Below the pieces are notes generated by a model. That model was not told the origin of the DNA. It worked only from the letters and a program-made list of their open reading frames with translations, and searched no databases. Below, in pieces: positions 3,544-23,975 of a stretch of 24,053 nucleotides of DNA. This DNA is from a virus, in the IMG/VR virus record IMGVR_UViG_3300007516_000147, positions 1 through 24,053 of that record; one strand, 5' to 3'. Both the position numbers and the translations under genes were made by a program. Each line of letters opens with the position of its first letter. Within the stretch, counting starts at the first letter, position 1.

Positions 3544-3768
3544 ATGGCGAGGAGACGATTAACTGGATTGTATTGTCAGAAATGTTCTGGACGAGTTTTT
3601 ATTGGAAATCAATATTATGCTTTTCAAAAGAACTTTATTGATCTGACATGCACAAGATGTTCATGGTCAAAGGATATAGAGGTTAAGAAGTTAAACTGGT
3701 TGCTTGACAAACTTGGGTTTAATAAAACAAAGGAATATCATGATATCAAAGAAACCAATAGCAAATAA
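3544..3768 (+). CDS. Small zinc-ribbon protein, 74 aa
   Basis: The ATG at 3544 lies one base after the phosphoesterase stop. An upstream in-frame start at 3487 would run deep into that gene and is less likely. The protein has two CxxC knuckles, C11-x2-C14 and C36-x2-C39, separated by about 20 residues of beta-type sequence, which is a classic zinc ribbon. A basic stretch follows (DIEVKKLNWLLDKLG). It loosely recalls the Com-like zinc-ribbon regulators of Mu-like phages, but I would not assign that name. Its 3' end overlaps the next gene by 29 bases. A nucleic-acid-binding or regulatory role is likely. Confidence 0.7.
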   Translation: MARRRLTGLYCQKCSGRVFIGNQYYAFQKNFIDLTCTRCSWSKDIEVKKLNWLLDKLGFNKTKEYHDIKETNSK

Positions 3769-4174
3769 ATTTTATAAATATGCTGGTAACATAGTCAAGA
3801 TAAAGAAGATTTCTAAGTCTAGAAATAAAATTTTTCTTGAAAATCTTACTGATAGGGAGCATATTGATGTCCCATATGAGCAATGTGAATTGCTTCTAAC
3901 AAGACTGTATACTGTTGGCGAGGTCGCTAAAATTGTCGGCAGAAGGCCAGATACTTTAAGAAAATATGAAAGAAGAAATTTAATACCTTCCGCAAAGAAA
4001 TTTGGTGAAGAATGTGTTGGGTATACATCTTGGAGATACTATGATGAAAGCGCAGTGTATGAAATGGTTGAGTTTTTTAACCAGCGAGTGCAGGGGCGAC
4101 CAGTTGTAAAAACAAAAAGCAATATGCAAGGCACATTGAAATTACTGGAACAAAAAGTAAAACTACACAGATGA
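3740..4174 (+). CDS. MerR-like HTH DNA-binding protein
   Basis: The protein has 144 residues when started at the ATG at 3740, which has AAAGGAAT just upstream; a TTG at 3704 would add 12 residues but lacks such a site. Residues 56-118 resemble the MerR/excisionase winged helix: LYTVGEVAKIVGRRPDTLRK, then YERRNLIPSAKKF, and a wing with WRYYDESAVYEMVEFFNQR. MerR-type proteins recognise DNA through this helix and usually dimerise through a coiled coil; here only about 25 basic residues follow, so there is no long effector domain. The first 50 residues look like a small beta domain (GNIVKIKKISKSRNKIFLENL). It may be a transcription regulator or excisionase-like architectural protein. Its place before the WhiB-like gene fits a regulatory role. 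Confidence 0.7.
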   Translation: MISKKPIANKFYKYAGNIVKIKKISKSRNKIFLENLTDREHIDVPYEQCELLLTRLYTVGEVAKIVGRRPDTLRKYERRNLIPSAKKFGEECVGYTSWRYYDESAVYEMVEFFNQRVQGRPVVKTKSNMQGTLKLLEQKVKLHR

Positions 4175-4183
4175 GGAGTTAAT

Positions 4184-4396
4184 ATGAGTAAGAGTGATGA
4201 AACAGGAACAGAAATTTGGGCTTCTTTAGGAATTACCAAAAATCTCGGTAACTACGAGTCATTGAGGCTCGACGCTGGCGCTCGTGCAAAGGCGGAGAGT
4301 CTGGATGATCCAGTTGCGTGGGCAAAGCTCTGGGAGTCTATTGATTCACAAATTGAGGCTAAGCTTCAAGAACTGGACCATGAAAAGTCTAAGTGA
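4184..4396 (+). CDS. Small phage protein with LGNYESLRLDAG motif, 70 aa
   Basis: A GAGGAG ribosome-binding site sits just before the ATG at 4184. The protein opens with a beta-like segment (ITKNLGNYESLRLDAGARA), a pattern I associate with many phage small proteins of unknown function that carry an L/I-GN-Y/F-ES motif. A helix with alternating charged residues follows (WAKLWESIDSQIEAKLQEL). There is no membrane segment. The stop codon overlaps the start of the WhiB-like gene by 17 bases, so the two are probably co-translated. Function unknown. Confidence 0.65.
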   Translation: MSKSDETGTEIWASLGITKNLGNYESLRLDAGARAKAESLDDPVAWAKLWESIDSQIEAKLQELDHEKSK

Positions 4397-4679
4397 TTGG
4401 GTGTTGGAATCAGTTTGTATAAATGATGAAACGCCATCTTCTTGGCTATCTTATAATATAAAAGATATAAAATATGCCAAGGATGGTTGTAGTCGATGTG
4501 AAGTAAGAATCCCCTGTTTTTTAAGAGCGTGGGGCGAAGATTCGTATGCGGGAGTGAACGCTGGTATATCTGAATATGATATATTGATGCTTACATGGAA
4601 GGAGACAAGTAAAGAAAATGGCAAAAACTGGGCTAGAAGCAATAAATTACTTCAAAAAATCCTGCAAAGAATTAAATAA
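4380..4679 (+). CDS. WhiB-family iron-sulfur transcription regulator
   Basis: The 99-residue protein starts at the ATG at 4380; the longer frame from 4284 mostly shadows the preceding gene. It has the four WhiB cysteines C13, C37, C40 and C46 in C-x23-C-x2-C-x5-C spacing, set in GCSRCEVRIPCFLRAW, followed by the turn motif GVNAGISEYD (normally GVWGG-SE). WhiB-like proteins hold a 4Fe-4S cluster and bind the main sigma factor to steer transcription; phage members such as TM4 WhiBTM4 can repress host genes and affect superinfection. The tail after residue 70 (TWKETSKENGKNWARSNK) is basic enough to contact DNA. This is the strongest evidence for an actinobacterial host. Family call strong; target genes unknown. 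Confidence 0.88.
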   Translation: MKSLSDWVLESVCINDETPSSWLSYNIKDIKYAKDGCSRCEVRIPCFLRAWGEDSYAGVNAGISEYDILMLTWKETSKENGKNWARSNKLLQKILQRIK

Positions 4680-4923
4680 GTTATACATTCCAGACTCCCC
4701 AAGGGAAGATGCGATTGCTGATTCGTTAATGGAATTTTATGATAACGATAATTTATTTAAGGCAATAGACCTTTTTGTTAAATCAAGGACAGGGCCATTT
4801 TTAATGTTTGATTTTGCTATAGAATCAAGGAAGTACATTGATAAGATAATCTCTGAAAAGAAAGCACTTGAAAAGTTTAAAGACATCGTAGAAGAAACAA
4901 GGAAGAGAATGGAATCTGAATGA
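4618..4923 (+). CDS. Hypothetical protein upstream of replicative helicase, 101 aa
   Basis: The ATG at 4618 lies inside the 3' end of the WhiB-like gene (62-base overlap). The stop overlaps the helicase start by four bases (ATGA), so translation of the two is probably coupled. The protein is highly helical and charged (DSPREDAIADSLMEFYDN, KKALEKFKDIVEETRKRM) with no cysteine pairs or nucleotide-binding motif. I do not recognise the family. A small helical protein directly before a DnaB-type helicase could be a helicase loader or accessory factor, as in several phages, but that is inference from position only. Confidence 0.65.
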   Translation: MAKTGLEAINYFKKSCKELNKLYIPDSPREDAIADSLMEFYDNDNLFKAIDLFVKSRTGPFLMFDFAIESRKYIDKIISEKKALEKFKDIVEETRKRMESE

Positions 4924-6137
4924 ACGATGAAATAAGATTACTTAACTCCATTATTGACACCAATGGTTATGTTGAGGCTGTTAATGGTGGTTCTGAAAAT
5001 GTCTTTTTAGAATATAGAGACATATGGAGTTTTATCATAAACCATTATGATGAGCATAAAAAGGTTCCATCGAAAGATACCATCAAACATCACTATCCTG
5101 ACTTTGATTTCGTCCCAACTCCAGAACCGCTTAAGTATTATTTAGATCAAGCGAAGCGTGAGTCTCTTTCTTATCAAACAAGAACTCTTGTCTCTAAAGC
5201 CAATGGAATTCTTAATGAATTAGGGCCTAAAGAATCCTTGTCTTTCTTAATGGAAGAAACATCTCGACTATATAAGTTCTCAAGTAGCTTGAAAGATACT
5301 GATCTCGCTGGTGATTGGAAAGAGCGAGCCGCTGCTCTCAGGGAAAGGTCACTAAAAGCAAATGGTGATTTGCAGGGTATTCCTAGCGGGATTAATGTAA
5401 TCGACAAAGTGTTTGGCGGTTGGCAACCTGGTGATTTTATTGTTTTGTTAGGTTGGACTGGTGTAGGAAAATCTTTTATTGCTCGTTTATTTGCGGTTAA
5501 TGCTTGGAAGGCTGGGTATAGACCACTTATTATTTCTCTTGAAATGAATAAACAACAAGAAAGTCAACGCTTCGACACATTGCTGAATAACGGAGAGGGC
5601 AACTTCACCAACTCAGACTTGGTAAAAGCCAACCCCGCAATTATTGATAAATATGAAGCATGGGCTGAGAAAACATTTGCTGGCAAACACGCTATCCATT
5701 TAGTTACAGCCGAGGGCCTTGAATCTGCTGACCAAAACATGGTTCAGGCTAAGATTGACCAGTATCATCCAGATATGGTAATCCTTGACTATCATGGTCT
5801 ATTCGATGATTCAAGCGGGGCAAAAACAGAGACAGAGAAGGCTAAGAATTTATCAAAAGCCTTCAAGAGAATGGCTGTAAAGAACAATATTCCTATTATA
5901 GATGTTGCTGCTGTAACAATGTCTGAGGGGCATGGAGAGAGACCACCAGAGCTAGAGGAAGTCGCATGGAGTAAACAGTTGGCTTACGATGCAGACCTTG
6001 TTCTTGCAATCCATCGTGATTTAGAAACAGGGCTTTTCCAAATTGTATCCAGAAAAGTGCGAAGAGCAACGCAGTTTGGATTTTTCCTTAGATGGAATTT
6101 AGATACTGGTAAGTGGGCTGAGGAGTGGGATATTTAA
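4920..6137 (+). CDS. DnaB/gp41-type replicative DNA helicase
   Basis: The protein has 405 residues. The N-terminal ~140 residues are a helical domain (DIWSFIINHYDEHKKVPS). The RecA-like motor follows: GINVIDKVFGGWQPGDFIVL leads into Walker A GWTGVGKS (178-185), then LIISLEMNKQQ (motif H1a with catalytic Glu), Walker B DMVILDYHG (about 285-293), VAAVTMSEGHGE and the C-terminal IVSRKVRRATQFGFFLRW with arginine residues for subunit contact. This family forms hexameric rings that unwind DNA 5'-3' at the fork and recruit primase. It is shorter than bacterial DnaB (about 450-500 aa), as is usual in phages. It follows a small helical protein with a four-base overlap and precedes the primase. Confidence 0.9.
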   Translation: MNDEIRLLNSIIDTNGYVEAVNGGSENVFLEYRDIWSFIINHYDEHKKVPSKDTIKHHYPDFDFVPTPEPLKYYLDQAKRESLSYQTRTLVSKANGILNELGPKESLSFLMEETSRLYKFSSSLKDTDLAGDWKERAAALRERSLKANGDLQGIPSGINVIDKVFGGWQPGDFIVLLGWTGVGKSFIARLFAVNAWKAGYRPLIISLEMNKQQESQRFDTLLNNGEGNFTNSDLVKANPAIIDKYEAWAEKTFAGKHAIHLVTAEGLESADQNMVQAKIDQYHPDMVILDYHGLFDDSSGAKTETEKAKNLSKAFKRMAVKNNIPIIDVAAVTMSEGHGERPPELEEVAWSKQLAYDADLVLAIHRDLETGLFQIVSRKVRRATQFGFFLRWNLDTGKWAEEWDI

Positions 6138-6138
6138 T

Positions 6139-6318
6139 ATGGACAAAATTCTTAGCGGAACTGCTCAAGATATTGAGGCAATAGCGCGGCTTAGGCCATG
6201 GATGGAAGAAGAGGCTCGGGAAAAGTATGGTTACACAGGTAAAACAAAATTATTTACAGAATACCACAAAGAGTCTGAAACATTTTCATTCTCACTCATT
6301 TTCTGCGATGAATCTTGA
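6139..6318 (+). CDS. Small gene between helicase and primase, 59 aa
   Basis: The ATG at 6139 lies one base past the helicase stop, and the frame runs 59 codons to TGA at 6316-6318, overlapping the primase start by 11 bases. It fills what would otherwise be a 170-base hole in a region with almost no gaps. The product begins DKILSGTAQDIEAIARLRPW, continues with acidic and basic helix (MEEEAREKYGYTGKTKLF) and ends FSLIFCDES. The ribosome-binding site is weak (GGAGTGGGA at 6122-6130), so coupling to helicase translation is likely. I see no known domain. The frame is below usual length cut-offs. Confidence 0.6.
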   Translation: MDKILSGTAQDIEAIARLRPWMEEEAREKYGYTGKTKLFTEYHKESETFSFSLIFCDES

Positions 6319-7207
6319 AAATGAAGTAAAACTGTTATTCCAGAATTATGGTATACATACTCATACCGACTCTGGCAATGAGGTAACGATATATTGTCCG
6401 TTCCATCAGAATAGGAACACTCCATCTTTTTATATAAACAAGAAGACTGGGTTGTGGCAATGCTTCAACCCATCATGCGGGAAGAAAGGTAATTTCAGGC
6501 AGCTATATAGACAGATAACTGGCAAGGCATACGGCAAGGCAACCAGTTTAGACCCAGTTGCTTTGAAAAAAGAACTTGAAAAAGCCTTAAGCCCAGTTAT
6601 CACTGATGAAGAAATAACTATTGACACCCTTATGGTAGACTATAGTTCAGATGATGCTAAGGAAAAATTTTCGTCTTTTCTTGAAAGAGGATTGGAGATG
6701 AAGACTCTGCAATATTTTGATGTCTGTTATTCCGAAACAAAGAAAAGAGTTGTTATCCCAGTAAGAAGCCATGACTTTAAGATTATGGGGCTCATAGGGC
6801 GGGCTACATCAACAGATCAGGAGCCTAGATACCTTTATAATACTGGGTTTAAAAGAGCAATAGTGTTGTTTAATCTTCAAAACGCTAAAAGGCATGATAG
6901 TGTAATTGTAGTTGAAGGTAGCGTTGATGCTATGAAGGTACACCAGGCGGGTTTCCCAAATGTTGTCGCTACATTGGGAGCACAAGTTTCCGCACAGCAA
7001 GCCAAATTGTTGAAGAGATATTTTGATAAAATTATTATTTTTTCTGACAAAGATGACGCTGGCGATGCAATGAAGCGTGCTATAATAAGTTCTTGCTGCG
7101 GTAAAGAAATTTACTCAGCGGAAGTTCCAGAGGATGCTAAAGACCCTGGGGAGCTGACAGTAAAGGAAATACAAACAAGCATAACAAACAAACAAATCAT
7201 TATATAA
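6308..7207 (+). CDS. DnaG-type DNA primase (CHC2 zinc finger + TOPRIM)
   Basis: The 299-residue protein starts at ATG 6308; a start at 6227 would overlap the 59-aa gene by 92 bases and adds 27 residues of unlikely composition. The zinc-binding domain has C30-PF-H33 and C52-x4-C57 (CPFHQNRNTPSF, QCFNPSCGKKGNF). The catalytic core has the RNAP-basic-type VIPVRSHDFKIMGLIGRA segment and a TOPRIM fold: VVEGSVDAMKV (E203) and IFSDKDDAGDAMKRA (D247, D249). These acidic residues bind the metals for RNA primer synthesis. It is much shorter than bacterial DnaG (about 600 aa) and lacks an obvious C-terminal helicase-binding domain, so contact with the helicase may differ. Sits directly between helicase and SSB. 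Confidence 0.88.
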   Translation: MNLENEVKLLFQNYGIHTHTDSGNEVTIYCPFHQNRNTPSFYINKKTGLWQCFNPSCGKKGNFRQLYRQITGKAYGKATSLDPVALKKELEKALSPVITDEEITIDTLMVDYSSDDAKEKFSSFLERGLEMKTLQYFDVCYSETKKRVVIPVRSHDFKIMGLIGRATSTDQEPRYLYNTGFKRAIVLFNLQNAKRHDSVIVVEGSVDAMKVHQAGFPNVVATLGAQVSAQQAKLLKRYFDKIIIFSDKDDAGDAMKRAIISSCCGKEIYSAEVPEDAKDPGELTVKEIQTSITNKQIII

Positions 7208-7222
7208 CAGGAGAAAACAAAT

Positions 7223-7864
7223 ATGACATTCACATCACTTAAAACATTACAAGAACTGGAGAAGGCAGTAACACCACCCCCTGGTTCTGGGGTAAAGAAA
7301 TACTTCACGCTACAGGCGGGCGATTCGTTCAAGATTCGCTTCCGTCAGGAGTTAACTGAAGATGCAAAGAATTATATAGAAGAAGTTGGTACTGGAATTA
7401 CAGTACCCGTTATTACATCACCGATAAATTGGAAGTGGAGAGTAGCATCAACTGCTAGTTTTGAAAAATTCAATTATCGTTGCTGGGGCACGGAGCAGTC
7501 CGTTGTTGATAAAGCGTGGAGACCTAAGCCACACTTCTTGGTCAATATCGCTGTCGAGGTTGAGAAGGGTGTATGGGAACCAAGAATTCTTGACACAACT
7601 TTTAACCAGCGCCATGTTGGTCTTACACTGATTGAATATGCTAAGGAATTTGGCACTATTACAGATAGAGAGTATAAGTATTCCAGGACTGGCTCAGCCG
7701 CTTCTGACACAAACTACAGCCTTATACCTTTAAATATTGGAGAAGTGCCAAAGGAGATTAAAGACATGCCGTTTCATGACTTGGAAAAGGTCTATATGGC
7801 ATTACCATATGAGAAGCAGCAAATTTTCCTAACCACTGGAGAGCTAGAAAAAGACTCTTGGTAA
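7223..7864 (+). CDS. gp32-like single-stranded DNA-binding protein
   Basis: The 213-residue protein has a clear ribosome-binding site (ACAGGAGA) before ATG 7223. Its core HFLVNIAVEVEKGVWEPRIL followed by HVGLTLIEYAKEFGTITDRE and YKYSRTGSAASDTNYSLIPL matches phage gp32-like ssDNA-binding proteins, in which a conserved strand, helix and 'dt-Y-l-p' strand build the OB fold. Aromatic and basic residues (WRPKPHF, NWKWRV, FEKFNYRCWG) could stack on ssDNA. The C-terminus ELEKDSW is acidic, like the SSB tail that recruits partner proteins. Location between primase and polymerase supports the call. A strong hairpin follows 13 bases after the stop. No zinc motif like that of T4 gp32 is seen. Confidence 0.7.
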   Translation: MTFTSLKTLQELEKAVTPPPGSGVKKYFTLQAGDSFKIRFRQELTEDAKNYIEEVGTGITVPVITSPINWKWRVASTASFEKFNYRCWGTEQSVVDKAWRPKPHFLVNIAVEVEKGVWEPRILDTTFNQRHVGLTLIEYAKEFGTITDREYKYSRTGSAASDTNYSLIPLNIGEVPKEIKDMPFHDLEKVYMALPYEKQQIFLTTGELEKDSW

Positions 7865-8450: not shown

Positions 8451-11400
8451 ATGACTGAGTTCGTTCACTTACACTGTCACTCAGAACACTCTCTCTTGGA
8501 TGGCATGTCCACTCCCGAAGAGATTGCGCAAATAGCAAGCTCTAACGGGCAGTTCGCTGCGGCTATAACCGATCACGGCACGATGGGTGGGGTACTGAGA
8601 TTCCAGGATGCATGCAAAAAGCATGCTGTAAAACCACTGTTTGGCGTAGAAGCATACTTCGTACCATCCGTAAAAAATGATGGTGATGGTAAGCATGAGA
8701 GATTCCACTTAATTCTCCTTGCAAAGAACAACCAAGGTCTTGAAAAATTGTTCAAGTTATCACAAATTAGCTGGCAGGATAACTTTTATTATAAGCCAAG
8801 AATTGATTTTGATTTATTAGAAGAAATGGTTGATGACGATATTGTTTCATTGTCAGGCTGCAGAGGTAGTTCAATTGCTAAAGCAATTGAGGCTGGCGAT
8901 TACTCCAAAGCGGAGCAACTAGCAACTAGATTCAACTCTATCTTTAAAGAAGATTTTTACTTTGAGCTGCAGGCTTGGAACCCCAAAGTTATAAATGATG
9001 GGTTACTGGATCTCGCAACATCACTTGGCAGGAAGGCTGTTGCTACTGCAGATTGTCATTTCCCAACCTATGCAGACAAGGGGTGTGAGGAAGTTTTGTT
9101 GCTTGTTTCTCAATACCCATCAATTGGCGCAGCGGCTATTAATAAGGCAAAGGAAAATTTGAAAACATTTCCCCCTGGTAATTATGATCTAGTTGAAAAG
9201 GTTAATCATCTATACCCAGATAGATTTTTGAGGTTTGATGATATAAATCCTTATGTGGCTAAAGGGTCAGAGGTGCTTTCTTGGTTTAAAGAATCTGGTT
9301 ATGATAGACCTGATCTCTTGGAGAATACTATCGAGGTTGCGAGCAAGTGCAGTGCTGAAATACAAAAGAGAAGAAGTCTTTTGCCAAAATATATGAAGTC
9401 TCTTAACTCAGATGATTACCTGAAAGAAATGTCTGAGTTTCGCTTGGAAGAGTTGGGCTTAGGAGAGCAATACAGGGATAGATTAGCAGAAGAACTTTCT
9501 GTAATTAAACAACTTGGATTTTCTGACTACTTTCTTATCGTGTGGGATTTAATCTCATGGGCAGACGCAAACTTTGTCGGGAGAGGAACTGGTCGAGGCT
9601 CGGTGGGCGGCAGTCTGCTTGCTTTCCTGCTAAAAATTACAAAAGTAGATCCAATTAAATATAATCTTTTGTTTGCTAGGTTTATCAGTGATGAACGCAA
9701 TGATTATCCTGACATCGATCTTGATTTTGAAGACAAGCGCAGAAATGAAGTCAAAGAATATTTGCGGGATAGATGGGGTCGTGATCATGTTGCCGCAATT
9801 ACCACATTTGGAACATTCAAACCAAAATCTGCTGTAAAAGATGTCGCCAGAGTTCTACAGGTCCCTTTCGAGGAAACTAATAATATCACTCCGTATTTTG
9901 AAACAATTGAAGAATTAATAGACTCGCCTAAGGGAAGGCTGTTTTGTGCAAAATATCCTGATGTCCCAAAAATAGCAAAAAGATTGGAAGGTAGGATTAG
10001 AAATACAGGGATTCATGCTGCTGGAATGGTTGTTTCATCTATTCCTTTAAACCAAGTTTGCCCTATTGAAACAAGGAAAGAAACCGATGGTGGAGAAAGA
10101 ATTACAGTAACCGCTTTTGACATGATTGACGCTGAGGCGGTCGGTCTAATTAAAATAGATATTTTGGGTCTAAAGACGGTATCTGTCATTAAAGATTGCT
10201 TAGCGAAGGTCCTAGAACGCACAGGGCTCGATGTAGAGGACCAGTCCTTGATGCTTGATGACCCCAAAGTTTTTGAAAATTTTAATAATGGCAACACGGT
10301 TGGCGTTTTTCAAACAGATGCGGCTGCGTATAGAAACTTGATTGAAAGAATGGGAATAAATAATTTTAATGATTTGGTTGTAAGTAATGCATTAGTTAGA
10401 CCAGGAGCATTGCTATCACAAGGACAAAAGTATATTGATTGCAAAATGGGAATAACTCAGCCTTACTACCCACACGAGTCAGTTCGTGAAATTCTTGAAG
10501 AAACATATGGCACGGTAATTTTCCAAGAACAATTAATGCAAATGTCTGTAAAGATATCTGGGTTCACATGGTCAGACGCTGACAAACTCAGAAAAATAAT
10601 CGGTAAGAAAAGAGAGGTGAGTGAGTTCAAACAATATAAAGATAAGTTTGTAAACAACGCTATCATTCCAAAGATTGAGGCTAAGCAAATGTGGGCTGAA
10701 TTCGAGATGTCCGCTTTGTACATGTTTAATAAATCTCACGCCGTTGCTTACTCAATGCTTTCGTATCAAACTATGTGGCTGAAGGTGAATTACCCTCTTG
10801 AGTTTATTTGGTCACTGCTTTACAATGAAGACTCTACCGAAAAAACAACGGCATATTTGATGGAAGCGCAGAGACTCAGTGTTCCAATACTCCCTCCTGA
10901 TATAAACTTATCTCAAGAATTTTTTACAACTGATAACTCAACAGGCGTTGACGCAATTAGGTTTGGTCTTTCTAATGTTGCTGGGTGTGGGGTTGCAGCT
11001 ATTAATGAGATTTTTAATAAAAGGCCCTTTAGTTGCTTTGATGAGTTTAACAATAAATGTTCTAAATCAGCAGTGAAAGCACCTCTCCGTTTAAACTTTG
11101 AAAAAGTTGGCGCATACGCATCAATGAATCATATTTCTCAGTATCAACATGAGCGATACTATCTGCCAGTGCTTGGATTCTCTATTCAATCTGCTGAGGA
11201 CAAAAACGAAATGGATGTTTTTGTTGGCAACTTATCTGAGTTCCACGAAATAAATTCTCCGTTAACTTTAATCAAGGCGATTGTTCGGTCAACCAAGAAA
11301 ACTGCCCAATATTTGAGGATTGAGTTTGAAGATTTTTCAGGGTCAGCTACTGTCTTTGCTGATAGGAATACGGAGATGGCTAACCGTGATTATGTATACG

Positions 11401-11870
11401 CTTTAATAGGAGATAGAACACTCCACTCATTTTGTGATGCTTATAATTATATTGATACTGACTTACATAAGTTTATAATTCTTCGTCAAAAAGGCATTGA
11501 ACATGATCGCAGTTGGCTTTATAAAACAGGTCTAGGGTATATTGGCGATGAGAAGACATTAATGTATATAATGCACTCAAGGGTCTTTACAACATCTAAG
11601 GGTAAGTTGATGGCGAATTTATATTGTTGGGATGGGGTACAAATTTTTAAAGTTGTTATATTCCCTAGAGCATATATAAAGATGAAAGGGATTGTTAAAC
11701 AGGGGCAGTGGTATGCGGCAAGATTGTCTAAAATTGAAGAAGCTCCGACATTAACTCGTATGGATTCATACAAAGTTGAGTCTGACTCTGCTATCATAAG
11801 CATAGACAATTACATAGAGCGAAAGAATTTAAAGGAATCGGACTATTTAAATGCTAGCATGCAGGTATAA
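8451..11870 (+). CDS. dnaE: DNA polymerase III alpha subunit (DnaE-type) with intact-looking PHP exonuclease domain
   Basis: The 1139-residue family C polymerase opens with a PHP domain: HLHCHSEHSLLDG, ITDHGTMGG, GVEAY, SGCRG and ATADCHF keep the metal-binding His, Asp, Glu and Cys positions seen in proofreading PHP domains, unlike E. coli DnaE where they are lost. The palm has GRGTGRGSVGGSLLAF (about 376) and PDIDLDFED (about 420) with two catalytic Asp, the third in IKIDILGLKT (about 567). FNKSHAVAYSMLSYQTMWL belongs to the finger region. Near residue 950 AIVRSTKKTAQYLRIEFEDF looks like the OB fold. No separate 3'-5' exonuclease gene is visible in the window, so proofreading may be intrinsic. 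Length matches bacterial DnaE (about 1160). Start ATG 8451 abuts the previous stop. Confidence 0.95.
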   Translation: MTEFVHLHCHSEHSLLDGMSTPEEIAQIASSNGQFAAAITDHGTMGGVLRFQDACKKHAVKPLFGVEAYFVPSVKNDGDGKHERFHLILLAKNNQGLEKLFKLSQISWQDNFYYKPRIDFDLLEEMVDDDIVSLSGCRGSSIAKAIEAGDYSKAEQLATRFNSIFKEDFYFELQAWNPKVINDGLLDLATSLGRKAVATADCHFPTYADKGCEEVLLLVSQYPSIGAAAINKAKENLKTFPPGNYDLVEKVNHLYPDRFLRFDDINPYVAKGSEVLSWFKESGYDRPDLLENTIEVASKCSAEIQKRRSLLPKYMKSLNSDDYLKEMSEFRLEELGLGEQYRDRLAEELSVIKQLGFSDYFLIVWDLISWADANFVGRGTGRGSVGGSLLAFLLKITKVDPIKYNLLFARFISDERNDYPDIDLDFEDKRRNEVKEYLRDRWGRDHVAAITTFGTFKPKSAVKDVARVLQVPFEETNNITPYFETIEELIDSPKGRLFCAKYPDVPKIAKRLEGRIRNTGIHAAGMVVSSIPLNQVCPIETRKETDGGERITVTAFDMIDAEAVGLIKIDILGLKTVSVIKDCLAKVLERTGLDVEDQSLMLDDPKVFENFNNGNTVGVFQTDAAAYRNLIERMGINNFNDLVVSNALVRPGALLSQGQKYIDCKMGITQPYYPHESVREILEETYGTVIFQEQLMQMSVKISGFTWSDADKLRKIIGKKREVSEFKQYKDKFVNNAIIPKIEAKQMWAEFEMSALYMFNKSHAVAYSMLSYQTMWLKVNYPLEFIWSLLYNEDSTEKTTAYLMEAQRLSVPILPPDINLSQEFFTTDNSTGVDAIRFGLSNVAGCGVAAINEIFNKRPFSCFDEFNNKCSKSAVKAPLRLNFEKVGAYASMNHISQYQHERYYLPVLGFSIQSAEDKNEMDVFVGNLSEFHEINSPLTLIKAIVRSTKKTAQYLRIEFEDFSGSATVFADRNTEMANRDYVYALIGDRTLHSFCDAYNYIDTDLHKFIILRQKGIEHDRSWLYKTGLGYIGDEKTLMYIMHSRVFTTSKGKLMANLYCWDGVQIFKVVIFPRAYIKMKGIVKQGQWYAARLSKIEEAPTLTRMDSYKVESDSAIISIDNYIERKNLKESDYLNASMQV

Positions 11871-12172: not shown

Positions 12173-12661
12173 ATGTATACAATAGCATTTACTGGTCACA
12201 GACCACCAAAGATTGGTGGCTATAACATAGATGCACCTTTGCGTCAGGCTGTAATACAAAAGATAACTCAGGTTGTCCAGTATTATGCTAGTCACTACAC
12301 GAACTGTCAAGCTATTGTTGGCGGTGCTCTTGGCGTAGACCAAGACGCTGCATCAATTTGCGACTCACTAGGGATACCATATCTTGTAGCAATTCCATGC
12401 CTGGGTCAGGATAGTAAATGGCCCAAAGAGTCTCAGGATAAATATAAAATTATGTTAGAAAAGGCATATAAAAGAGTACTTGTCCATAATGGAACATATA
12501 ACTTTACATGCATGGACGAGCGCAACAAATACATGGTGGATAATTGTGATTTATTAATTGCCGTTTGGGATGGTTCCGAGGGTGGAACGGCGAACTGTGT
12601 CCGTTATGCTCAGCATGAGGGCCGAGAGATTACTCTCATTGACCCGTCAAAGTTATTATAA
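12173..12661 (+). CDS. SLOG/YpsA-like (DUF1273-type) Rossmann-fold protein
   Basis: The 162-residue protein has the YpsA/SLOG hallmarks: FTGHRPPKIGGY at the N-terminus, VGGALGVDQDAA at about 49-60, and ERNKYMVDNCDLLIAVWDGS followed by EGGTANCVRYA near the C-terminus. SLOG domains are DprA-related Rossmann folds that bind nucleotides or nucleotide-derived ligands; bacterial YpsA affects cell division in Firmicutes, and related SLOG proteins act in conflict systems. In a phage it could bind a signal nucleotide, ADP-ribose-like ligand or DNA, but the sequence does not say which. It sits in the accessory block right after the polymerase with a tight start (ATG abuts previous stop). Confidence 0.75.
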   Translation: MYTIAFTGHRPPKIGGYNIDAPLRQAVIQKITQVVQYYASHYTNCQAIVGGALGVDQDAASICDSLGIPYLVAIPCLGQDSKWPKESQDKYKIMLEKAYKRVLVHNGTYNFTCMDERNKYMVDNCDLLIAVWDGSEGGTANCVRYAQHEGREITLIDPSKLL

Positions 12662-12675
12662 ACAATAGACAGGAA

Positions 12676-12957
12676 ATGGATGTGAACGAAGCAGAAAATC
12701 TCATCGCGGCAAACGCAATACTTGGATACCCCGAAGTACCAAAGGTGGTACGCCGACAACTCACAAGGAATGCTGCCCATTGCCGCACCTGTAATACAAC
12801 CATTGAGTCTAGACACCGCCATGACTGGGTAGCCTGTGGCTGTCCACAAAACTCAGACAAGGGCATCTATGTTGATGGTGGTCTTGCTTATAGTAGGCGC
12901 GGAATTGGCAAGGATGCGGATTATTTTGATCTTTGTGAATATGATGACACGAAATGA
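12676..12957 (+). CDS. C4 zinc-binding small protein with ESRHRHD motif
   Basis: The 93-residue protein has C36-x2-C39 and C54-x-C56 around ESRHRHDWVACGC, followed by GIYVDGGLAYSRRG. This C-x2-C / ESRHRHD / DGG arrangement is familiar to me from small proteins common in actinobacteriophages, usually annotated hypothetical. The conserved His-Arg cluster beside the cysteines suggests a metal site. ATG 12676 has ACAGGA just upstream; the 3' end overlaps the next gene by four bases (ATGA). Function unknown; a nucleic-acid or protein-binding zinc knuckle is the simplest reading. Confidence 0.65.
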   Translation: MDVNEAENLIAANAILGYPEVPKVVRRQLTRNAAHCRTCNTTIESRHRHDWVACGCPQNSDKGIYVDGGLAYSRRGIGKDADYFDLCEYDDTK

Positions 12958-13980: not shown

Positions 13981-14175
13981 ATTAAAACCAAAGATGATCA
14001 AACAGAAAACCTAATCATTGATGGGATAACAACCCGCCTTGAAGATGGTAATTCAGAAGTTGTATACATAACCGTGAAAATGAGATTTTTTAGCGAGTGT
14101 TATGGTCGCTCGCGTGACCTGCTAGATGCTGTATCGGCAGTAAATGCGCTTATGGAAAAGAGGGAAAGATGCTAA
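13981..14175 (+). CDS. Small protein apparently started at ATT, 64 aa
   Basis: Between 13967 and 14168 a frame runs without stop from a TAA at 13960-13962 to TAA at 14173-14175. It contains no ATG, GTG or TTG until codon 32 (GTG) and codon 34 (ATG), neither of which has a ribosome-binding site. A strong AAAGGAG (13968-13974) lies six bases before ATT at 13981, the ideal spacing. The product (IIDGITTRLEDGNSEVVYIT, then VKMRFFSECYGRSRDLLDAV) looks like a compact strand-strand-helix protein and fills the gap exactly, overlapping the RecA-like start by seven bases. ATT starts are rare but known, as in infC. A point mutation of ATG, or a sequencing error, would give the same picture. Confidence 0.55.
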   Translation: MKTKDDQTENLIIDGITTRLEDGNSEVVYITVKMRFFSECYGRSRDLLDAVSAVNALMEKRERC

Positions 14176-15086
14176 TTATTGACAAAAGACGCGGGGATCT
14201 TATGCCTCAGCATGATGTCATCCCAACCCCCAGTATTGGGCTGAATAGGGCGCTGGGTGGTGGATTAAATTCTGGTGCAACCCATTTATTTTGGGGCACT
14301 CCGTCAGTAGGTAAAACAACTATGTGCTTCAGAATTATTGGTGAGGCGCAGAAGATGGGTTATCGCCCAATTATAATAGATTCTGAGTCATCTTACAATG
14401 ACGAGTATGCCGCTAAGTGCGGTATTGATATTAGCGATGTTGTAATTATTCAGGCAACAACAGTTGAAGATATTATGAAGAACATTATTGGGTTTCTTAA
14501 TGATGATAAAGAGAAGCATATCTTCTTGTTTGATTCATTGTCCAATATTATCAAGGAAGAGTTTTATGATAAGCCCGAGAGTGGTAAGGCCCTGGGTCTG
14601 CAGGCGCGTTCGCAAGGATACTTACTGCAAAAGCTGGTTAATTATCTTCATAAAGAGAGGAACATCATGCTGTTTGTTGCTCACCAGACTGTTGACTTAA
14701 GCGGTATGTTCGCCATTACGAAGGCTAAGATGGGGAATACTGTCCACCACAATATGCACAATGTTGTTAAGTTATTCCTTTCTATGTCTAAGGCTGAAAT
14801 GGAACGGGACAATACAAATAAGATTACTTCTCAGAGGGCTGTTTGGACTATTGAAAAAACAAAGCAGGTACCTACAATTGGATCAAGTGGTTATTATTAT
14901 GTTTTACCGCAAGAAGGACAAATTGATAAAGCCCGTGAAGTAATTGACATTGCTGTTGAAATGGAGATAATTAGTCGCAAAGGAGCGTGGTATACTTATG
15001 GGGATAGCAAGTGGAACGGCATGGGCGCTATCGAGTTAACTGAAAAACAGGGTGCCGAGATTGAGAAAGCTATTAATGGCGAATGA
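14169..15086 (+). CDS. RecA/UvsX-like recombinase
   Basis: The 305-residue protein has a RecA-type ATPase core: PSIGLNRALGGGLNSGATHL leads to Walker A GTPSVGKTT (43-51), PIIIDSESSYNDEYAAKCGI matches the conserved strand and catalytic Glu region, KHIFLFDSLSNI is Walker B (about 116-127), and MLFVAHQTVDLSGMF fits the L1-side segment that follows. It lacks the long C-terminal domain of bacterial RecA (about 350 aa), as phage UvsX-like proteins do. It would form filaments on ssDNA and drive strand exchange for repair and recombination-dependent replication. GAGGGAAAG precedes ATG 14169; ATG 14202 (residue 12) is a possible alternative start. Confidence 0.85.
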   Translation: MLIIDKRRGDLMPQHDVIPTPSIGLNRALGGGLNSGATHLFWGTPSVGKTTMCFRIIGEAQKMGYRPIIIDSESSYNDEYAAKCGIDISDVVIIQATTVEDIMKNIIGFLNDDKEKHIFLFDSLSNIIKEEFYDKPESGKALGLQARSQGYLLQKLVNYLHKERNIMLFVAHQTVDLSGMFAITKAKMGNTVHHNMHNVVKLFLSMSKAEMERDNTNKITSQRAVWTIEKTKQVPTIGSSGYYYVLPQEGQIDKAREVIDIAVEMEIISRKGAWYTYGDSKWNGMGAIELTEKQGAEIEKAINGE

Positions 15087-15878: not shown

Positions 15879-16198
15879 TGCCAGATATTATAATAAATAG
15901 AGAAATCCTCAGTGCCCATATGGGTGATAAGGCAGACGAATTTCTTGAGTGCATGAGGATCGTGGAAGATATTATACAACACCCAGAAGGGTATCTTGGT
16001 GCGCAGGCTATTAAGTACGCAAACATACTGGCTGCGTACAGGACTGTAATGATTGTCAAATCACAAATGTTTAAAAGAAGATCGACAATGATGAGTGAGC
16101 AAGATAAATTTGTTAATGATATATGGAAAACTATGTATGAAGCATTATCAGAGAATATAAATACATTAAAATTAGCCGCAAAGGGAGTAAACAGTTGA
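15878..16198 (+). CDS. Hypothetical helical protein upstream of Cas4-like nuclease, 106 aa
   Basis: The start shares one base with the previous stop (TAATG) and the stop overlaps the next start as TTGA. The protein is fully helical (SAHMGDKADEFLECMRIVED, GAQAIKYANILAAYRTVMIV, DIWKTMYEALSENINTLKLA). Phages often place such a small helical gene directly before a RecB/Cas4-like nuclease, and a partner role is possible but unproven. No motif recognised. Confidence 0.6.
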   Translation: MPDIIINREILSAHMGDKADEFLECMRIVEDIIQHPEGYLGAQAIKYANILAAYRTVMIVKSQMFKRRSTMMSEQDKFVNDIWKTMYEALSENINTLKLAAKGVNS

Positions 16199-16938
16199 AA
16201 TCATTAGCACATCTTAAAATGCCAAAAGTGGAAAAACCAATAGTTGTTGAACAAGAGAGAGATCTTGTTGAGGCCATTGATGAGCATTTGGCATTAAGAA
16301 ATAAACCTAGTTTTAAGAAAGTAAGCGGGTTCCACCCTAGTTATACAAATCAGTGCTCTAGATATTGGTGGTATTTATTTGATGGAGTTAGCGTGACTCC
16401 TAGTTTTAATCCACAAACATACCGTATTTTTGATAACGGTCATGCTGTGCATGACAGGCTTTATAGTTATCTTCGAGAGATGGGTATTTTAATGGCGGAA
16501 GAAATTAGTGTTTCTTATAGCAGTCCCCCAATTGAGGGTACCGCAGATGGTATAATTAATTGGTATGGAGAAAAGCTGATTGAATTAAAATCTATTAGTG
16601 CTGAAGGGTTTCATTATAGACAACTTCACAACAAACCAAAAGACGAACATTACCGACAAGCCCAAATATATATGGAGTGCCTAAATCTCGACGCAGGATA
16701 TGTTATTTATGAAAATAAAAATAATCAACAAATCTTGCCAATATACATCGAGAAAGATAAGGATTTCATCGAAAAATTGTTTAAGAAATACAGGAAAATT
16801 CATGCCTCGTATACGAGTGGAGAAATTCCTGTTCAACCTTACAAGATAACTTCCGCCAATTGCGGGGCTTGTGATTTGAAGAAACACTGCTGGGCAGAAG
16901 GAAAGCAAGGTAAGGGTGACGATGTTGAATCGTTTTAA
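16195..16938 (+). CDS. Cas4/RecB-like PD-(D/E)XK exonuclease with iron-sulfur cysteines
   Basis: The 247-residue protein starts at TTG 16195 with AGGGAG seven bases upstream. Motifs in order: HPSYTNQCSRYWWY with C54, FDNGHAVHDRLYSYL, IEGTADGII (D118), LIELKSIS (E130-x-K132), HYRQAQIYMECL (Q156) and CGACDLKKHCW with C223, C226 and C232. This is the Cas4/AddB-like plan of a PD-(D/E)XK nuclease in which four Cys hold a 4Fe-4S cluster. Such enzymes resect DNA ends to make 3' overhangs for strand exchange. In phages without CRISPR arrays they act in recombination; no Cas1/Cas2 or array is here, so a CRISPR role is not suggested. Confidence 0.85.
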   Translation: MKSLAHLKMPKVEKPIVVEQERDLVEAIDEHLALRNKPSFKKVSGFHPSYTNQCSRYWWYLFDGVSVTPSFNPQTYRIFDNGHAVHDRLYSYLREMGILMAEEISVSYSSPPIEGTADGIINWYGEKLIELKSISAEGFHYRQLHNKPKDEHYRQAQIYMECLNLDAGYVIYENKNNQQILPIYIEKDKDFIEKLFKKYRKIHASYTSGEIPVQPYKITSANCGACDLKKHCWAEGKQGKGDDVESF

Positions 16939-16958: not shown

Positions 16959-17270
16959 ATGTACGACCAAGAATTGAGAACATGTGCACATAAGGAATGC
17001 AGTAAAGAGTTTAAAGCGAAAGTTTATAATGCTATATATTGCTCTGCGGAATGCAGGAAGATTGTAACAAATAGAAATTTATTAGCCAACTATTACGAAA
17101 AGAAAAAGAACAAAAATAAAAAAAGAATTTGCAAGACAAATGAATGCGGCGCTGTTTTATCAATTTATAATAAAGAAAAGATATGTGAAAAATGTAAAAG
17201 GGAAGCCTATGTCAAAAGACTTGTCGGGTGGGGTTGGAAAGAAAGCGATGTAAGAAGAGGCATTGAATGA
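16959..17270 (+). CDS. Double zinc-finger small protein, 103 aa
   Basis: The protein has two cysteine clusters: C9-x4-C14, C28-x3-C32 (CAHKECSKEF, YCSAECRKI) and C58-x4-C63, C76-x2-C79 (CKTNECGAV, ICEKCKREA), joined by a lysine-rich linker (YYEKKKNKNKKRI). The first resembles the short treble-clef-like finger found ahead of some phage nucleases. The basic linker and paired fingers favour DNA or RNA binding. No ribosome-binding site is evident before ATG 16959, so expression may be weak or coupled. It overlaps the RuvC-like start by four bases, which suggests the two products work together. Confidence 0.65.
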   Translation: MYDQELRTCAHKECSKEFKAKVYNAIYCSAECRKIVTNRNLLANYYEKKKNKNKKRICKTNECGAVLSIYNKEKICEKCKREAYVKRLVGWGWKESDVRRGIE

Positions 17271-17857
17271 GTATAAAAAGCATTGTCTCAAGTGTAAAAT
17301 CAGAAAGAATAATTGCAATAGACCCTTCTTCGCATTCGCTTGCCTGGGTTGTGTATGACATAACTTTAGAAAAGATAGTTCTTGTCGCTTCTGGTAAAAT
17401 TGATTACAAAAAAGATAAAGACATATCTATGAAATTTAGGGCAATAGATACTGGGTTGAAAACTGTCGTGGAGTCCTATAGTCCCAGATATGGCATTATT
17501 GAACAATCAATCTATGTTCAAAACTTTGAGACTAGTCGGATTATATCTTACATAATCGGTTACTCTTGGGGAGTTTTAAGTTCTAGCAATTGTGTTGTTT
17601 GTGATGTGAACCCATTAACATGGAAATCTGGTATTGGATATAAAAAATTATCCAAAAAAGATACAGAGTTATTCGCCAACAATGGAAAGAAGGGCGCTAT
17701 CCACGCTAAATTAAAAAATGAAAGGAAGCGGCGCGTCAGAGAGATTGTAAGTAAATTTTTCCAAACAGGAGACATTAACCTAGATGATGATGATATTATT
17801 GATGCTGCAGGCATTGGTTTATGGTATGCGATAACAAAAATTCAGGTCAATAAATAA
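17267..17857 (+). CDS. RuvC-like Holliday junction resolvase
   Basis: The 196-residue protein has an RNase H-fold resolvase layout: IIAIDPSSHSLAW with catalytic D19, RYGIIEQSIYVQN with E79, and the C-terminal acidic motif DDDDIIDAAGIGLW with D173-D176 and D179. These residues bind two metal ions for symmetric cleavage of four-way junctions. It would remove branches left by recombination before packaging. Length is near that of bacterial RuvC (about 170). A lysine-rich loop (AIHAKLKNERKRRVRE) could bind the junction. ATG overlaps the zinc-finger gene by four bases and the stop shares one base with the next start. Confidence 0.75.
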   Translation: MSIKSIVSSVKSERIIAIDPSSHSLAWVVYDITLEKIVLVASGKIDYKKDKDISMKFRAIDTGLKTVVESYSPRYGIIEQSIYVQNFETSRIISYIIGYSWGVLSSSNCVVCDVNPLTWKSGIGYKKLSKKDTELFANNGKKGAIHAKLKNERKRRVREIVSKFFQTGDINLDDDDIIDAAGIGLWYAITKIQVNK

Positions 17858-18153
17858 TGGCTAATGAACCCTACCGCGACAGGGCGTTCCTGTATGAAAT
17901 GTATGTACAAAGAAGAATGAATTTAACAGACATTTGCAAACATTTACATAAAACTTACAATATAGAAATTACACCGCAAGCTATTTATAACTGGGTAAAG
18001 AAATATGACTTACTTAAGTTTAGAGGAAAAGGGAGAAAGCTTTCAACTGGTGGACAGACTCGGCAGAAGTCTCAGGCTCAACTGAATGCGGAAAGCAGAA
18101 AGAGAGATATAGCAAAAATGAACAAATTTAAAAAACAAGGACGAGGTAGATAA
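17857..18153 (+). CDS. Small HTH DNA-binding protein with basic tail
   Basis: The 98-residue protein carries a homeodomain-like helix-turn-helix at about residues 9-48: FLYEMYVQRRMNLTDICKHL and ITPQAIYNWVKKYDLLKFRG, similar to helices used in phage terminase small subunits and transposase-type HTH domains. The last 45 residues are strongly basic with no acidic core (GRKLSTGGQTRQKSQAQ, KMNKFKKQGRGR). It probably binds DNA. It could be a regulator, or serve DNA packaging since terminase genes lie about 2 kb on; the gene at 19970 is a better small-terminase candidate. Confidence 0.65.
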   Translation: MANEPYRDRAFLYEMYVQRRMNLTDICKHLHKTYNIEITPQAIYNWVKKYDLLKFRGKGRKLSTGGQTRQKSQAQLNAESRKRDIAKMNKFKKQGRGR

Positions 18154-18920
18154 TGAGAAGAGCAGTTACTGTAGGAGACATTTCGTTATTCGCCAAGGTT
18201 GATATGGTGTATAACCAAGTCCGCGTAATCGAAGCAAAACAAAATCAGACAAAATATAAATGTCTTGGATCTGGCGAGTGTTGTCGAATTGGACTAGTCA
18301 TTCACATGGCTGAATGCGCAAATATTGCTTTTAAACTCAGGCAACAATATTATTTATATCTTGAGGATAAAGGCCAGGAGTGCGCGACTGATTGGTTGAA
18401 TGGCGTTGTTTCTGACCTCAAAGAAGCAATGTATGATGAGGACTGGGTTCCTGGTGGAGAAACAAAAAGACACTGCGCCTTTTACAAAGGGGGGTGTACC
18501 ATTTATGCCTATAGGCCGATGGTTTGTAGGTCATTCGGGACCATAACAAGTGTTGATAATTATTGTCCTAGAATTAGGAACGCTAACGGGGAGATTGATT
18601 TTTTCACGGGCGACTCAGTTCATCAAACGATTGTAATGTTCCAGCAGTTCTTAAAAGAATATTCTGAGGGGAAGGACATTGGTTATAGCTTAGTAGTCTA
18701 TATGCCCCTGGGAGTCCTTAGTTTTTTCCTTGACCCAGATGAACTAGAAGAATTACAGGAGAAAACAGATCCTAAATTTTGGACGGCTGTGCAGGGGTGG
18801 TTTAATTATAGAGTTCAATTCACCAAGTTGCATGGTTATACATATGAAGAACTAGGTGTATTTGCAAAAGATGCTGGGGTGCCAGTAAGTTTCCGTGAGA
18901 AAGAAGTTGACGAAGTTTAA
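18153..18920 (+). CDS. YkgJ-family Cys-cluster protein
   Basis: The 255-residue protein matches the YkgJ (CxxCxxCC-type, PF03692) cysteine pattern: KCLGSGECC (C37, C43, C44), HCAFYKGGCTIYAYRPMVCR (C108, C115, C125) and a later C138. Family members hold zinc or an iron-sulfur cluster and many are of unknown activity; some accompany methyltransferases or glycan-modifying enzymes. The C-terminal half (VVYMPLGVLSFFLDPDELEE, FWTAVQGWFNYRVQF) is specific to this phage. It shares a base with the upstream stop and precedes a glycosyltransferase by three bases, which makes a shared modification pathway possible. Family call firm; function unknown. Confidence 0.75.
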   Translation: MRRAVTVGDISLFAKVDMVYNQVRVIEAKQNQTKYKCLGSGECCRIGLVIHMAECANIAFKLRQQYYLYLEDKGQECATDWLNGVVSDLKEAMYDEDWVPGGETKRHCAFYKGGCTIYAYRPMVCRSFGTITSVDNYCPRIRNANGEIDFFTGDSVHQTIVMFQQFLKEYSEGKDIGYSLVVYMPLGVLSFFLDPDELEELQEKTDPKFWTAVQGWFNYRVQFTKLHGYTYEELGVFAKDAGVPVSFREKEVDEV

Positions 18921-18923
18921 AAG

Positions 18924-20009
18924 ATGAAGGATATTCTTTTTTTAGAAAATGTCATAACCAACCCAAACACTGGTTATGGATACACAAGCGAGATGTTGGT
19001 TCCGCAATTAATAAATAGCGGGTTAAATATTGTAAAACAATCTGACAATGCTGAATATATCAAAGAAATTATTAAAATCCAACGGGATCTTAATATTGGC
19101 TATCAATATATAGAATGGAGTAAGGCAGATATTGTAATTAGCCATTGTACCCCTGACACCTTTATGGAGTCTAAAAGTAATTATACAATAGGGTTTACAT
19201 ACTGGGAGCAAAATAAGCTGCCAAGTAGATGGATTGATAGTTGTAATAAAATGAATGAAATTTGGACAGTTTCAGCAGAGATGAAAAATGTTTTTATTAA
19301 TTCAGGGATAACCAGGCCCGTTTATGATTTTAAGCTTGGCGTTGACCCAAGTGTGTTTTACCCCAAGAAAAGGTCTGTGGGTGAACAATTTGTTTTTATG
19401 AGCATGGGTTCTCCAAGTACCCGCAAGAACTCCCAGATGGCTGTAGACGCTTTTCTGAGGCTGTTTAGGGGTAATGCCGCATATAAGTTAATATATAAAA
19501 CATCAGGCCCAGCAGATGCCAGGATATTGCAAGGCAAAACTATGATTTCTAGTATTTATGATCATCCACAAATTGAAGTTATTGATCACTTATTATCTGT
19601 TGAGGAATTAGGGTTGTTTTATGATAGAGCAAATTGTTTGCTTTATCCAACAGCTGGAGAAGGGTGGGGTTTAATCCCATTTCAAGCAATCGCAAAAGGA
19701 ATACCAACTATCTGTACTAATGCATTGGCTTGTACTGAATTTGCCAACATGTCAGTCCCTCTTGATTATTCTTGGACTTATAGAAATTGTAACGGGATAT
19801 ATTCCAATGCGGGTATGTTCGCGGAGCCAAATTTCGATGATTTATGTGATAAAATGTTATATGTAGTTAATAACTATGAGCAAGTTTCTAATAAGACATT
19901 TGAGTCGTCTAAATATATAAATAAGAACATGACATGGGAACATGTCTCAAAGGAGTATTCTGATAGGTTATGGCAAATATTGAAAAATACGAAGAGCCAT
20001 CTCTTCTAG
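18924..20009 (+). CDS. GT-B (GT4-like) glycosyltransferase
   Basis: The 361-residue protein has the GT4 plan: GYGYTSEML near the N-terminus in the acceptor domain, the hinge strand KLGVDPSVFYP (139-147), FMSMGSPSTRKNSQMAVDAF, and the nucleotide-sugar site GEGWGLIPFQAIAKGIP (245-261) with the conserved E-x7-E region replaced in part by Gln. It would transfer a sugar from an NDP-sugar to an unknown acceptor such as virion protein, modified DNA base or host glycan. Its 3' end overlaps the next gene by 40 bases. No start signal stronger than a distant GAAG is seen before ATG 18924, so coupling to the YkgJ gene is likely. Confidence 0.8.
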   Translation: MKDILFLENVITNPNTGYGYTSEMLVPQLINSGLNIVKQSDNAEYIKEIIKIQRDLNIGYQYIEWSKADIVISHCTPDTFMESKSNYTIGFTYWEQNKLPSRWIDSCNKMNEIWTVSAEMKNVFINSGITRPVYDFKLGVDPSVFYPKKRSVGEQFVFMSMGSPSTRKNSQMAVDAFLRLFRGNAAYKLIYKTSGPADARILQGKTMISSIYDHPQIEVIDHLLSVEELGLFYDRANCLLYPTAGEGWGLIPFQAIAKGIPTICTNALACTEFANMSVPLDYSWTYRNCNGIYSNAGMFAEPNFDDLCDKMLYVVNNYEQVSNKTFESSKYINKNMTWEHVSKEYSDRLWQILKNTKSHLF

Positions 20010-23117: not shown

Positions 23118-23975
23118 ATGTATATGATTACTACTCAAGAAGAAAATATTGAAATTACCCAAGAACAGATGAGTCAATGGGTTCCGTTTTTCGCGCTTCC
23201 TTGTTATGACAGACAATTGACTGAGCCTTTCTTTATGTCTTTTATCAAGACAGCTCTTTACTTAAAAGAAAACAATATGCGGTTTTCTATGGCTACCGTT
23301 AGCGATTCCTTAATCTCTCGCGCAAGGAACACGCTTGTTGCTAAGTTTATGGCTAACCCAATTCACACACATATGTTATTTATAGATGTTGATCTTGGAT
23401 TTGAGCCAGAGGCTATCCTTAAACTTCTATGGCAAGATAAAGATATTGTAACCGCAGCATATCCCATTAAAGAAATTAATTGGAAAAAGGTTGCTGATTT
23501 TGCAAAGCAAGGGGTTGACCCTGCTAAATTATCTGGCAAATCAACGAGATTTGTTGTCAATCCAGTTAAGCCTGGAAGTAATGAAATCAAAGTAGATAAA
23601 GGTGCTCTTGCTATATATGACGCAGGAACTGGGTTTATGTTGATTAAAAGAGAAGCGATTCAGAAAATGATGGATGCTTATCCTGAATTGAAATACAATG
23701 ACGATACTGGTTCTTTAAATGATGAAGAGAAGAAATATACATATGCTCTGTTTAATTCTTATGTTGATAGTGAGCAAAAAAGGTTTCTATCAGAAGATTA
23801 TGGCTTTGCAAGATATTGGCAAAATATGGGGAATGCGATTTGGGTTGATCCTTCAATTGAATTAAGTCATTTAGGTAGATTTAATTTTACAGGGAACCTT
23901 ATCGAGTTTTTAATAGACTTAGAAAAGAAAGATGTCGCAGACACAAAACGGTCTAAGAAACCAAAAAAGAAATAA
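23118..23975 (+). CDS. GT-A-like glycosyltransferase
   Basis: The 285-residue protein has SDSLISRARNTLVAKFM, THMLFIDVDLGFEPEAIL with a D90-V-D92 metal/nucleotide-sugar motif, KDIVTAAYPIKEINW, DAGTGFMLIKREAIQKM and FLSEDYGFARYWQNMG, ending in a lysine-rich tail. This set matches a phage-encoded GT-A family often annotated glycosyltransferase family 2, in which the DxD binds a metal and NDP-sugar and the SED acid probably aids transfer. The acceptor is unknown; glycosylation of virion or host components is plausible. The first ATG is 23118, but ATG 23124 may be the true start if the mRNA is leaderless. Confidence 0.78.
   Translation: MYMITTQEENIEITQEQMSQWVPFFALPCYDRQLTEPFFMSFIKTALYLKENNMRFSMATVSDSLISRARNTLVAKFMANPIHTHMLFIDVDLGFEPEAILKLLWQDKDIVTAAYPIKEINWKKVADFAKQGVDPAKLSGKSTRFVVNPVKPGSNEIKVDKGALAIYDAGTGFMLIKREAIQKMMDAYPELKYNDDTGSLNDEEKKYTYALFNSYVDSEQKRFLSEDYGFARYWQNMGNAIWVDPSIELSHLGRFNFTGNLIEFLIDLEKKDVADTKRSKKPKKK

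Follow-up and report, generated by a model that had tools for sequence, protein, structure and literature searches.

Computational analysis of a 24,053-base virus record (hereafter the window, meaning the whole stretch of DNA that was analyzed) revealed a divergent WhiB-like (Wbl) gene upstream of dnaB, whose product, named WhiB-B here, keeps the four cysteines of the family and has its predicted fold, but lacks the tryptophan of the family turn. We found that this gene holds a fixed place among the replication genes of a whole group of related phages, that it is under purifying selection, and that it is accompanied in these genomes by a second, canonical copy (WhiB-A). The window very probably comes from a phage genome of about 105-110 kb, the host of which would be a planktonic actinobacterium, very probably of freshwater. 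Our preferred reading, which we hold with moderate confidence, is that WhiB-B would carry a 4Fe-4S cluster, bind the host sigma-A at its region 4, and act during replication beside WhiB-A in such a phage.

Identification of a divergent WhiB-like protein

The WhiB-B gene lies at 4380-4679 on the + strand, runs from the ATG at 4380 to the stop at 4679, and encodes 99 amino acids with the N-terminus MKSLSDWVLESVCIND. A preliminary description of this DNA had placed a WhiB-like regulator at exactly these coordinates and had recognized in it the four-cysteine WhiB signature, and both points agreed with our searches: the protein scored 27.9 bits against Pfam Whib PF02467 (E 3.5e-6), which exceeds the gathering score of 23.6, and its cysteines C13, C37, C40, and C46 form the pattern C-x23-C-x2-C-x5-C and are invariant in 33 distinct orthologues. 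A six-frame search of the virus record for WhiB gave an E-value of 7.4e-8, several of the PHROGs matches of WhiB-B carry a WhiB-like annotation, and a profile built from 24 WhiB-B orthologues matched Streptomyces WhiB in the PDB (E 3.6e-11) and also WhiB1, WhiB3, WhiB4, and WhiB7. When WhiB was scanned for at E 0.001 in 14 control genomes, Corynebacterium glutamicum was the sole positive. The search of NCBIfam with WhiB-B gave no match, which is in line with the divergence of the protein. The C-terminus of WhiB-B is basic (net +6 over the last 30 residues), and the orthologues have a mean of +3.6 and a range of -2 to +7, the basic block being weaker in some of them.

The AlphaFold2 model of WhiB-B (pLDDT 90.8, pTM 0.79) was matched to WhiB1 of the WhiB1:SigA region 4 complex (6ono_C) with Z 9.5 and rmsd 1.5 over 69 residues, and every structure match listed for the model was a WhiB protein, in most cases bound to SigA region 4 or RNA polymerase. 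In Foldseek, the first 14 rows were all WhiB chains, with a weak best E-value of 0.035, which is unsurprising because the protein is so small. The closest solved structures are Wbl proteins (WhiB1 with SigA region 4, 6ono and 6onu, and Streptomyces WhiB, 8dy7), and these have in common with WhiB-B the spacing C-xn-C-x2-C-x5-C, a helical fold over WhiB-B residues 6-75, a basic C-terminus, and a conserved W ahead of the first cysteine. As modeled, WhiB-B has the Wbl fold.

Loss of the turn tryptophan in WhiB-B

The Wbl family has been described by its four cysteines, its G(V/I)WGG turn, and its basic C-terminus (PMC3905903). In WhiB1, the loop bearing this turn passes over the face of the cluster (PMC5741622), and a role of the loop in protein contacts has been proposed (PMC6282962). 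The preliminary description had taken GVNAGISE for a clear WhiB turn, but it is not canonical when set against the family motif: the turn in the window reads GVNAG instead of GVWGG, and the WhiB-B orthologues have GVNAG or GVNGG where the family has G(V/I)WGG. Because of this departure, we file the product of 4380-4679, on the basis of its sequence, as a WhiB-type homologue that is a divergent and not a canonical Wbl.

The position of the turn tryptophan was occupied by N in 69, by V in 8, and by I in 3 of 80 orthologous WhiB-B loci, and by W in none (0/80); these loci came from a separate scan with a WhiB alignment, whose pattern omitted the turn tryptophan position and favored the WhiB-B type just after it, so the frequency of tryptophan-less Wbl proteins beyond this phage group cannot be read from the scan. 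In the WhiB-B set found through DnaB, S and Y were present at this position too, and W never was. Besides the cysteines, the residues invariant in the orthologue alignment are, in the numbering of the window protein, W7, W22, S24, Y25, A33, V42, G58, G62, E65, and W73, among which W22, S24, Y25, and W73 fall outside the family signature as published. WhiB-B keeps W7 and W22 with an aromatic residue or leucine adjoining, together with the four cysteines and E65, and WhiB1 keeps the residues that align with W7 and the aromatic position 22-23. After the turn, the arginine-rich stretch of WhiB-A (e.g. SQRERRRYH) is replaced in WhiB-B by SEYD..LTWKE. Since both the turn tryptophan and the arginine-rich stretch are missing from WhiB-B, its canonical partner contacts may be lost or changed; the residue pattern suggests that they are altered, which would leave room for a decoy like WhiBTM4 or for a partner linked to replication.

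A decoy of host WhiB proteins would lower or block an essential host Wbl of cell division, ready the cell for phage growth, and exclude other phages. WhiBTM4 represses the host whiB2 and its overexpression produces the whiB2-mutant phenotype (PMC6282962), overexpression of a phage WhiB is mildly toxic in mycobacteria (PMC11797047), and the missing turn tryptophan, like the missing basic stretch behind it, would suit a protein that engages a partner but does not activate it. However, the constant place of the gene in the replication operon points to a function connected with replication and not host shut-off alone, and we regard the decoy as a possible but unlikely explanation of WhiB-B.

Gene neighborhood and conservation across relatives

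The gene order is tail fiber, HNH, metallophosphoesterase-type exonuclease, a small ORF, a MerR-like helix-turn-helix protein (3704-4174, 29.5 bits in Pfam MerR where the cut-off is 28.2, start listed as TTG 3704 with an alternative ATG at 3737), a small phrog_5189 protein (4184-4396, PHROG E 7.3e-11), and WhiB-B. It continues with a small ORF without assigned function (4618-4923, overlapping the WhiB-B end and the DnaB start), a DnaB-like replicative helicase (4920-6137, Pfam and PHROGs), a DnaG-like primase (6227-7207, Pfam and PHROGs), a single-strand DNA-binding protein (SSB, 7223-7864, phrog_9721, E 4.6e-24), a nucleotidase-like protein, and the DNA polymerase III alpha DnaE (8451-11870). 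Further downstream are a RecA/UvsX-like recombinase (14169-15086), a Cas4-like exonuclease (16195-16938, phrog_1706 and phrog_1990), a RuvC-like Holliday junction resolvase (17267-17857, Pfam and PHROGs), a glycosyltransferase, and the terminase large subunit TerL (20656-22383); from the MerR-like protein to TerL, all of the genes just listed with coordinates are on the + strand. WhiB-B had been described earlier as lying beside the MerR-like protein and ahead of the replisome. DnaB, DnaG, SSB, and DnaE do come after it, and the MerR-like gene is real by its Pfam score, but that gene is two genes upstream and the phrog_5189 gene intervenes. A tblastn search with the MerR-like protein gave no match.

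The window also encodes a YpsA/SLOG-family protein at 12173-12661 (Pfam, 54.5 bits) followed by a DUF7695 protein at 12676-12957 (61.4 bits), and a protein with a CxxCxxCC-type metal-binding domain at 18153-18920 (22.7 bits, slightly below the 23-bit cut-off). Two glycosyltransferase-like proteins are located at 18924-20009 and 23118-23975, one matching a conflict-system family-4 glycosyltransferase and the other matching phrog_1574 and, weakly, the Anp1 type. Glycosyltransferases are also encoded by isolated Planktophila phages.

The WhiB-B gene overlaps the preceding phrog_5189 gene by 17 bases and the following gene at 4618 by 62 bases, and we therefore infer that it is read as one operon with the replication genes. 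A promoter scan around the WhiB-B gene gave fewer sites than shuffles did and was given no weight.

We collected relatives by DnaB and TerL scans of viral contigs, which gave 160 related loci, and a scan of viral contigs with the single WhiB-B protein gave one 100% copy only. A WhiB-B orthologue was present upstream of dnaB at a constant offset (match start 522-543 bases before dnaB) in 73/73 relatives, that is, in all DnaB loci with enough upstream sequence; the phrog_5189, MerR-like, and 4618 genes were in the same places in all 73, and DnaB was in the flank of 80/80 loci found by the WhiB-alignment scan. Among 23 close-orthologue pairs with measurable dS, the dN/dS of WhiB-B was 0.03-0.21. 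Thus, WhiB-B is under purifying selection and in fixed synteny across the phage group. The weak single-sequence WhiB score of 27.9 bits and the lost signature residue could be taken as marks of a decaying host gene without function, but these dN/dS ratios and the presence of the gene in all relatives contradict such decay, which we find hardly credible. When WhiB-B was compared with GenBank phages by tblastn, one weak match (34%, E 0.06) was obtained in a spring-water podovirus, the WhiB of which has a tryptophan in its turn (GFWGG); this match was set aside as evidence.

The constant place between the phrog_5189 and 4618 genes, together with the lost turn tryptophan and the invariant W73 after the turn, may also be read as the mark of a protein detached from the sigma factor, serving the neighboring replication proteins as an iron-sulfur adaptor or redox switch. 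However, gene neighborhood alone is no proof of physical contact, the N-terminal aromatic residues align with those that WhiB1 keeps, and the model is matched by WhiB structures in sigma-bound form; we consider an adaptor of this kind improbable.

A second, canonical WhiB in the same phages

In relatives of 59-109 kb, another WhiB, which has a tryptophan in its turn, lies 24-28 kb downstream of WhiB-B. Both WhiB-A and WhiB-B were present in 10 of 12 records, and the remaining two records were fragments. Contig L006, which shares 12.4 kb with the window at 99.9% identity and extends past the window end, encodes a canonical WhiB (GIWGG, 70.6 bits) at L006:17987-18290, corresponding to about position 29645 of the window, past its end. 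As L006 overlaps the window and has WhiB-A, the phage of the window very likely encodes both copies. WhiB-A and WhiB-B formed separate clades in a tree of short, long-branched sequences that did not include cellular WhiB, and an origin of WhiB-B by recent duplication of WhiB-A was unsupported in that tree.

Phage kinship, host, and habitat

The best isolates for TerL (43% over 88% of the length), DnaE (about 38-39% identity), and DnaB (36%) were all Streptomyces phages, which, together with WhiB, supports the earlier view of the window as actinobacteriophage DNA. Between the tail genes and Cas4, the window and the Streptomyces phages (Stanwilliamsviridae and kin) also have their genes in the same order. 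The host lies almost certainly within the Actinobacteria. Homologues of TerL, DnaB, and DnaE are found in Proteobacteria and Cyanobacteria phages too, and the only MAG contigs found bear other labels, which might speak for a non-actinobacterial host whose phage had picked up a WhiB gene or shows a chance match; but, among isolates, the best matches of the three proteins are Streptomyces phages whose genes are in the same order, and the phage group keeps two separate WhiB copies, which makes such a host very improbable. The MAG contigs in question (L164 and L165) came from a TerL scan of genome contigs, are short, have 75% identical TerL, and carry the labels archaeon and Flavobacteriales. Since viral contigs can stray into MAG bins, we rejected these labels as host evidence; the two contigs, the only direct MAG links found, are most likely mis-binned viral contigs.

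The DNA is AT-rich, as had been noted before: the G+C content of the window is 38.5% (34-42% per kb), and the mean of its relatives is 36.6% (117 contig pieces). The preliminary description had gone on to propose a low-G+C, planktonic freshwater host. Streptomyces hosts have about 72% G+C. The Streptomyces phages have 48% in the 19-kb stretch homologous to the window, so the G+C of a phage does not fix that of its host, and the low G+C of this phage is a weak argument for a host of low G+C. A host of low G+C is plausible, and so is one among the Nanopelagicales, which lack CRISPR-Cas (PMC10202952). The freshwater part of the proposal was supported for some of the relatives, whose contigs came from IMG metagenomes 3300002835 and 3300020151/160/162/172/205, listed as their own by two freshwater lake studies (PMC6344600, PMC7527133). 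A tRNA search of the window found none, and three relatives of 105-109 kb have tRNA-Arg(TCT), tRNA-Asn(GTT), and tRNA-Thr(TGT) in common, one of them adding Ala and Leu (L192, L200, L201, L206-L208).

Proposed role of WhiB-B

Because its gene overlaps its neighbors and sits in the replication operon, WhiB-B is most likely made together with the replisome. It would hold a 4Fe-4S cluster on its four cysteines and use its conserved N-terminal aromatic face to dock on the primary sigma factor of the host, at region 4. The docked protein may redirect or restrain the host RNA polymerase during phage replication, and it would act beside the canonical WhiB-A encoded about 25 kb downstream. A host sigma-factor tether, as suggested in the preliminary description, appears a reasonable role by homology, and in its favor a search of 13 phage records found no sigma-70 region 4. 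In a further scheme, the paralogues would divide the Wbl function: canonical WhiB-A would act via the sigma factor, and WhiB-B would have acquired a new partner and serve as an iron-sulfur regulator linked to replication, so that phage DNA replication would be coupled to redox conditions or nitric oxide in the host cell; this seems to us a doubtful, rather remote prospect. For the Wbl family, the WhiB-A/WhiB-B lineage amounts to a natural experiment, as the turn tryptophan is gone in every WhiB-B member and the cluster cysteines are kept, and a comparison of WhiB-A with WhiB-B in sigma binding would reveal what the turn is for. The phage group itself is common in public aquatic viromes and distant from isolated phages.

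Comparison with known systems

Freshwater actinophages bearing whiB were reportedly described by Ghai in 2017. The use of whiB as a marker of freshwater actinophages, the low-G+C freshwater actinobacterial hosts of such phages, and the presence of multiple whiB copies in some actinophage clades have all been published (PMC6802176, PMC10202952, PMC10914622). A low-G+C freshwater actinophage with whiB is an already known, ordinary phage type, and host inference therefore adds little. The new part is the tryptophan-less WhiB paralogue fixed in the replication operon beside canonical WhiB-A, for which a non-exhaustive literature search found no published description.

Like the window group, the freshwater actinophages of Kavagutti 2019 (PMC6802176), the Planktophila phages E7 and F5 (PMC10202952), and those of COBRA (PMC10914622) are aquatic, have low G+C, and carry whiB. 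However, E7 and F5 have 39-kb genomes and encode a sigma-70 factor, whereas contigs of the window group reach 109 kb, and a search of 13 of its records found no sigma-70 region 4. WhiBTM4 of mycobacteriophage TM4 is, like WhiB-B, a small phage-borne Wbl, but it has been described as highly similar to the host WhiB2 (PMC6282962), whereas the identity of WhiB-B to any solved WhiB does not exceed about 30%. The Streptomyces phages (Jay2Jay, Anedea; Stanwilliamsviridae and kin) share with the window the order tail-HNH-metallophosphoesterase-HTH-small genes-DnaB-primase-SSB-DnaE-RecA-resolvase-Cas4, and Anedea has an HTH protein at the place corresponding to the MerR-like gene of the window. In contrast to the window, these phages, of about 133 kb and with 36-43% protein identity, have no WhiB at dnaB, where the flanking genes overlap, and possess a single WhiB with a GVWGG turn far away. 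Therefore, either the aquatic lineage acquired the helicase-linked copy or the Streptomyces lineage lost it.
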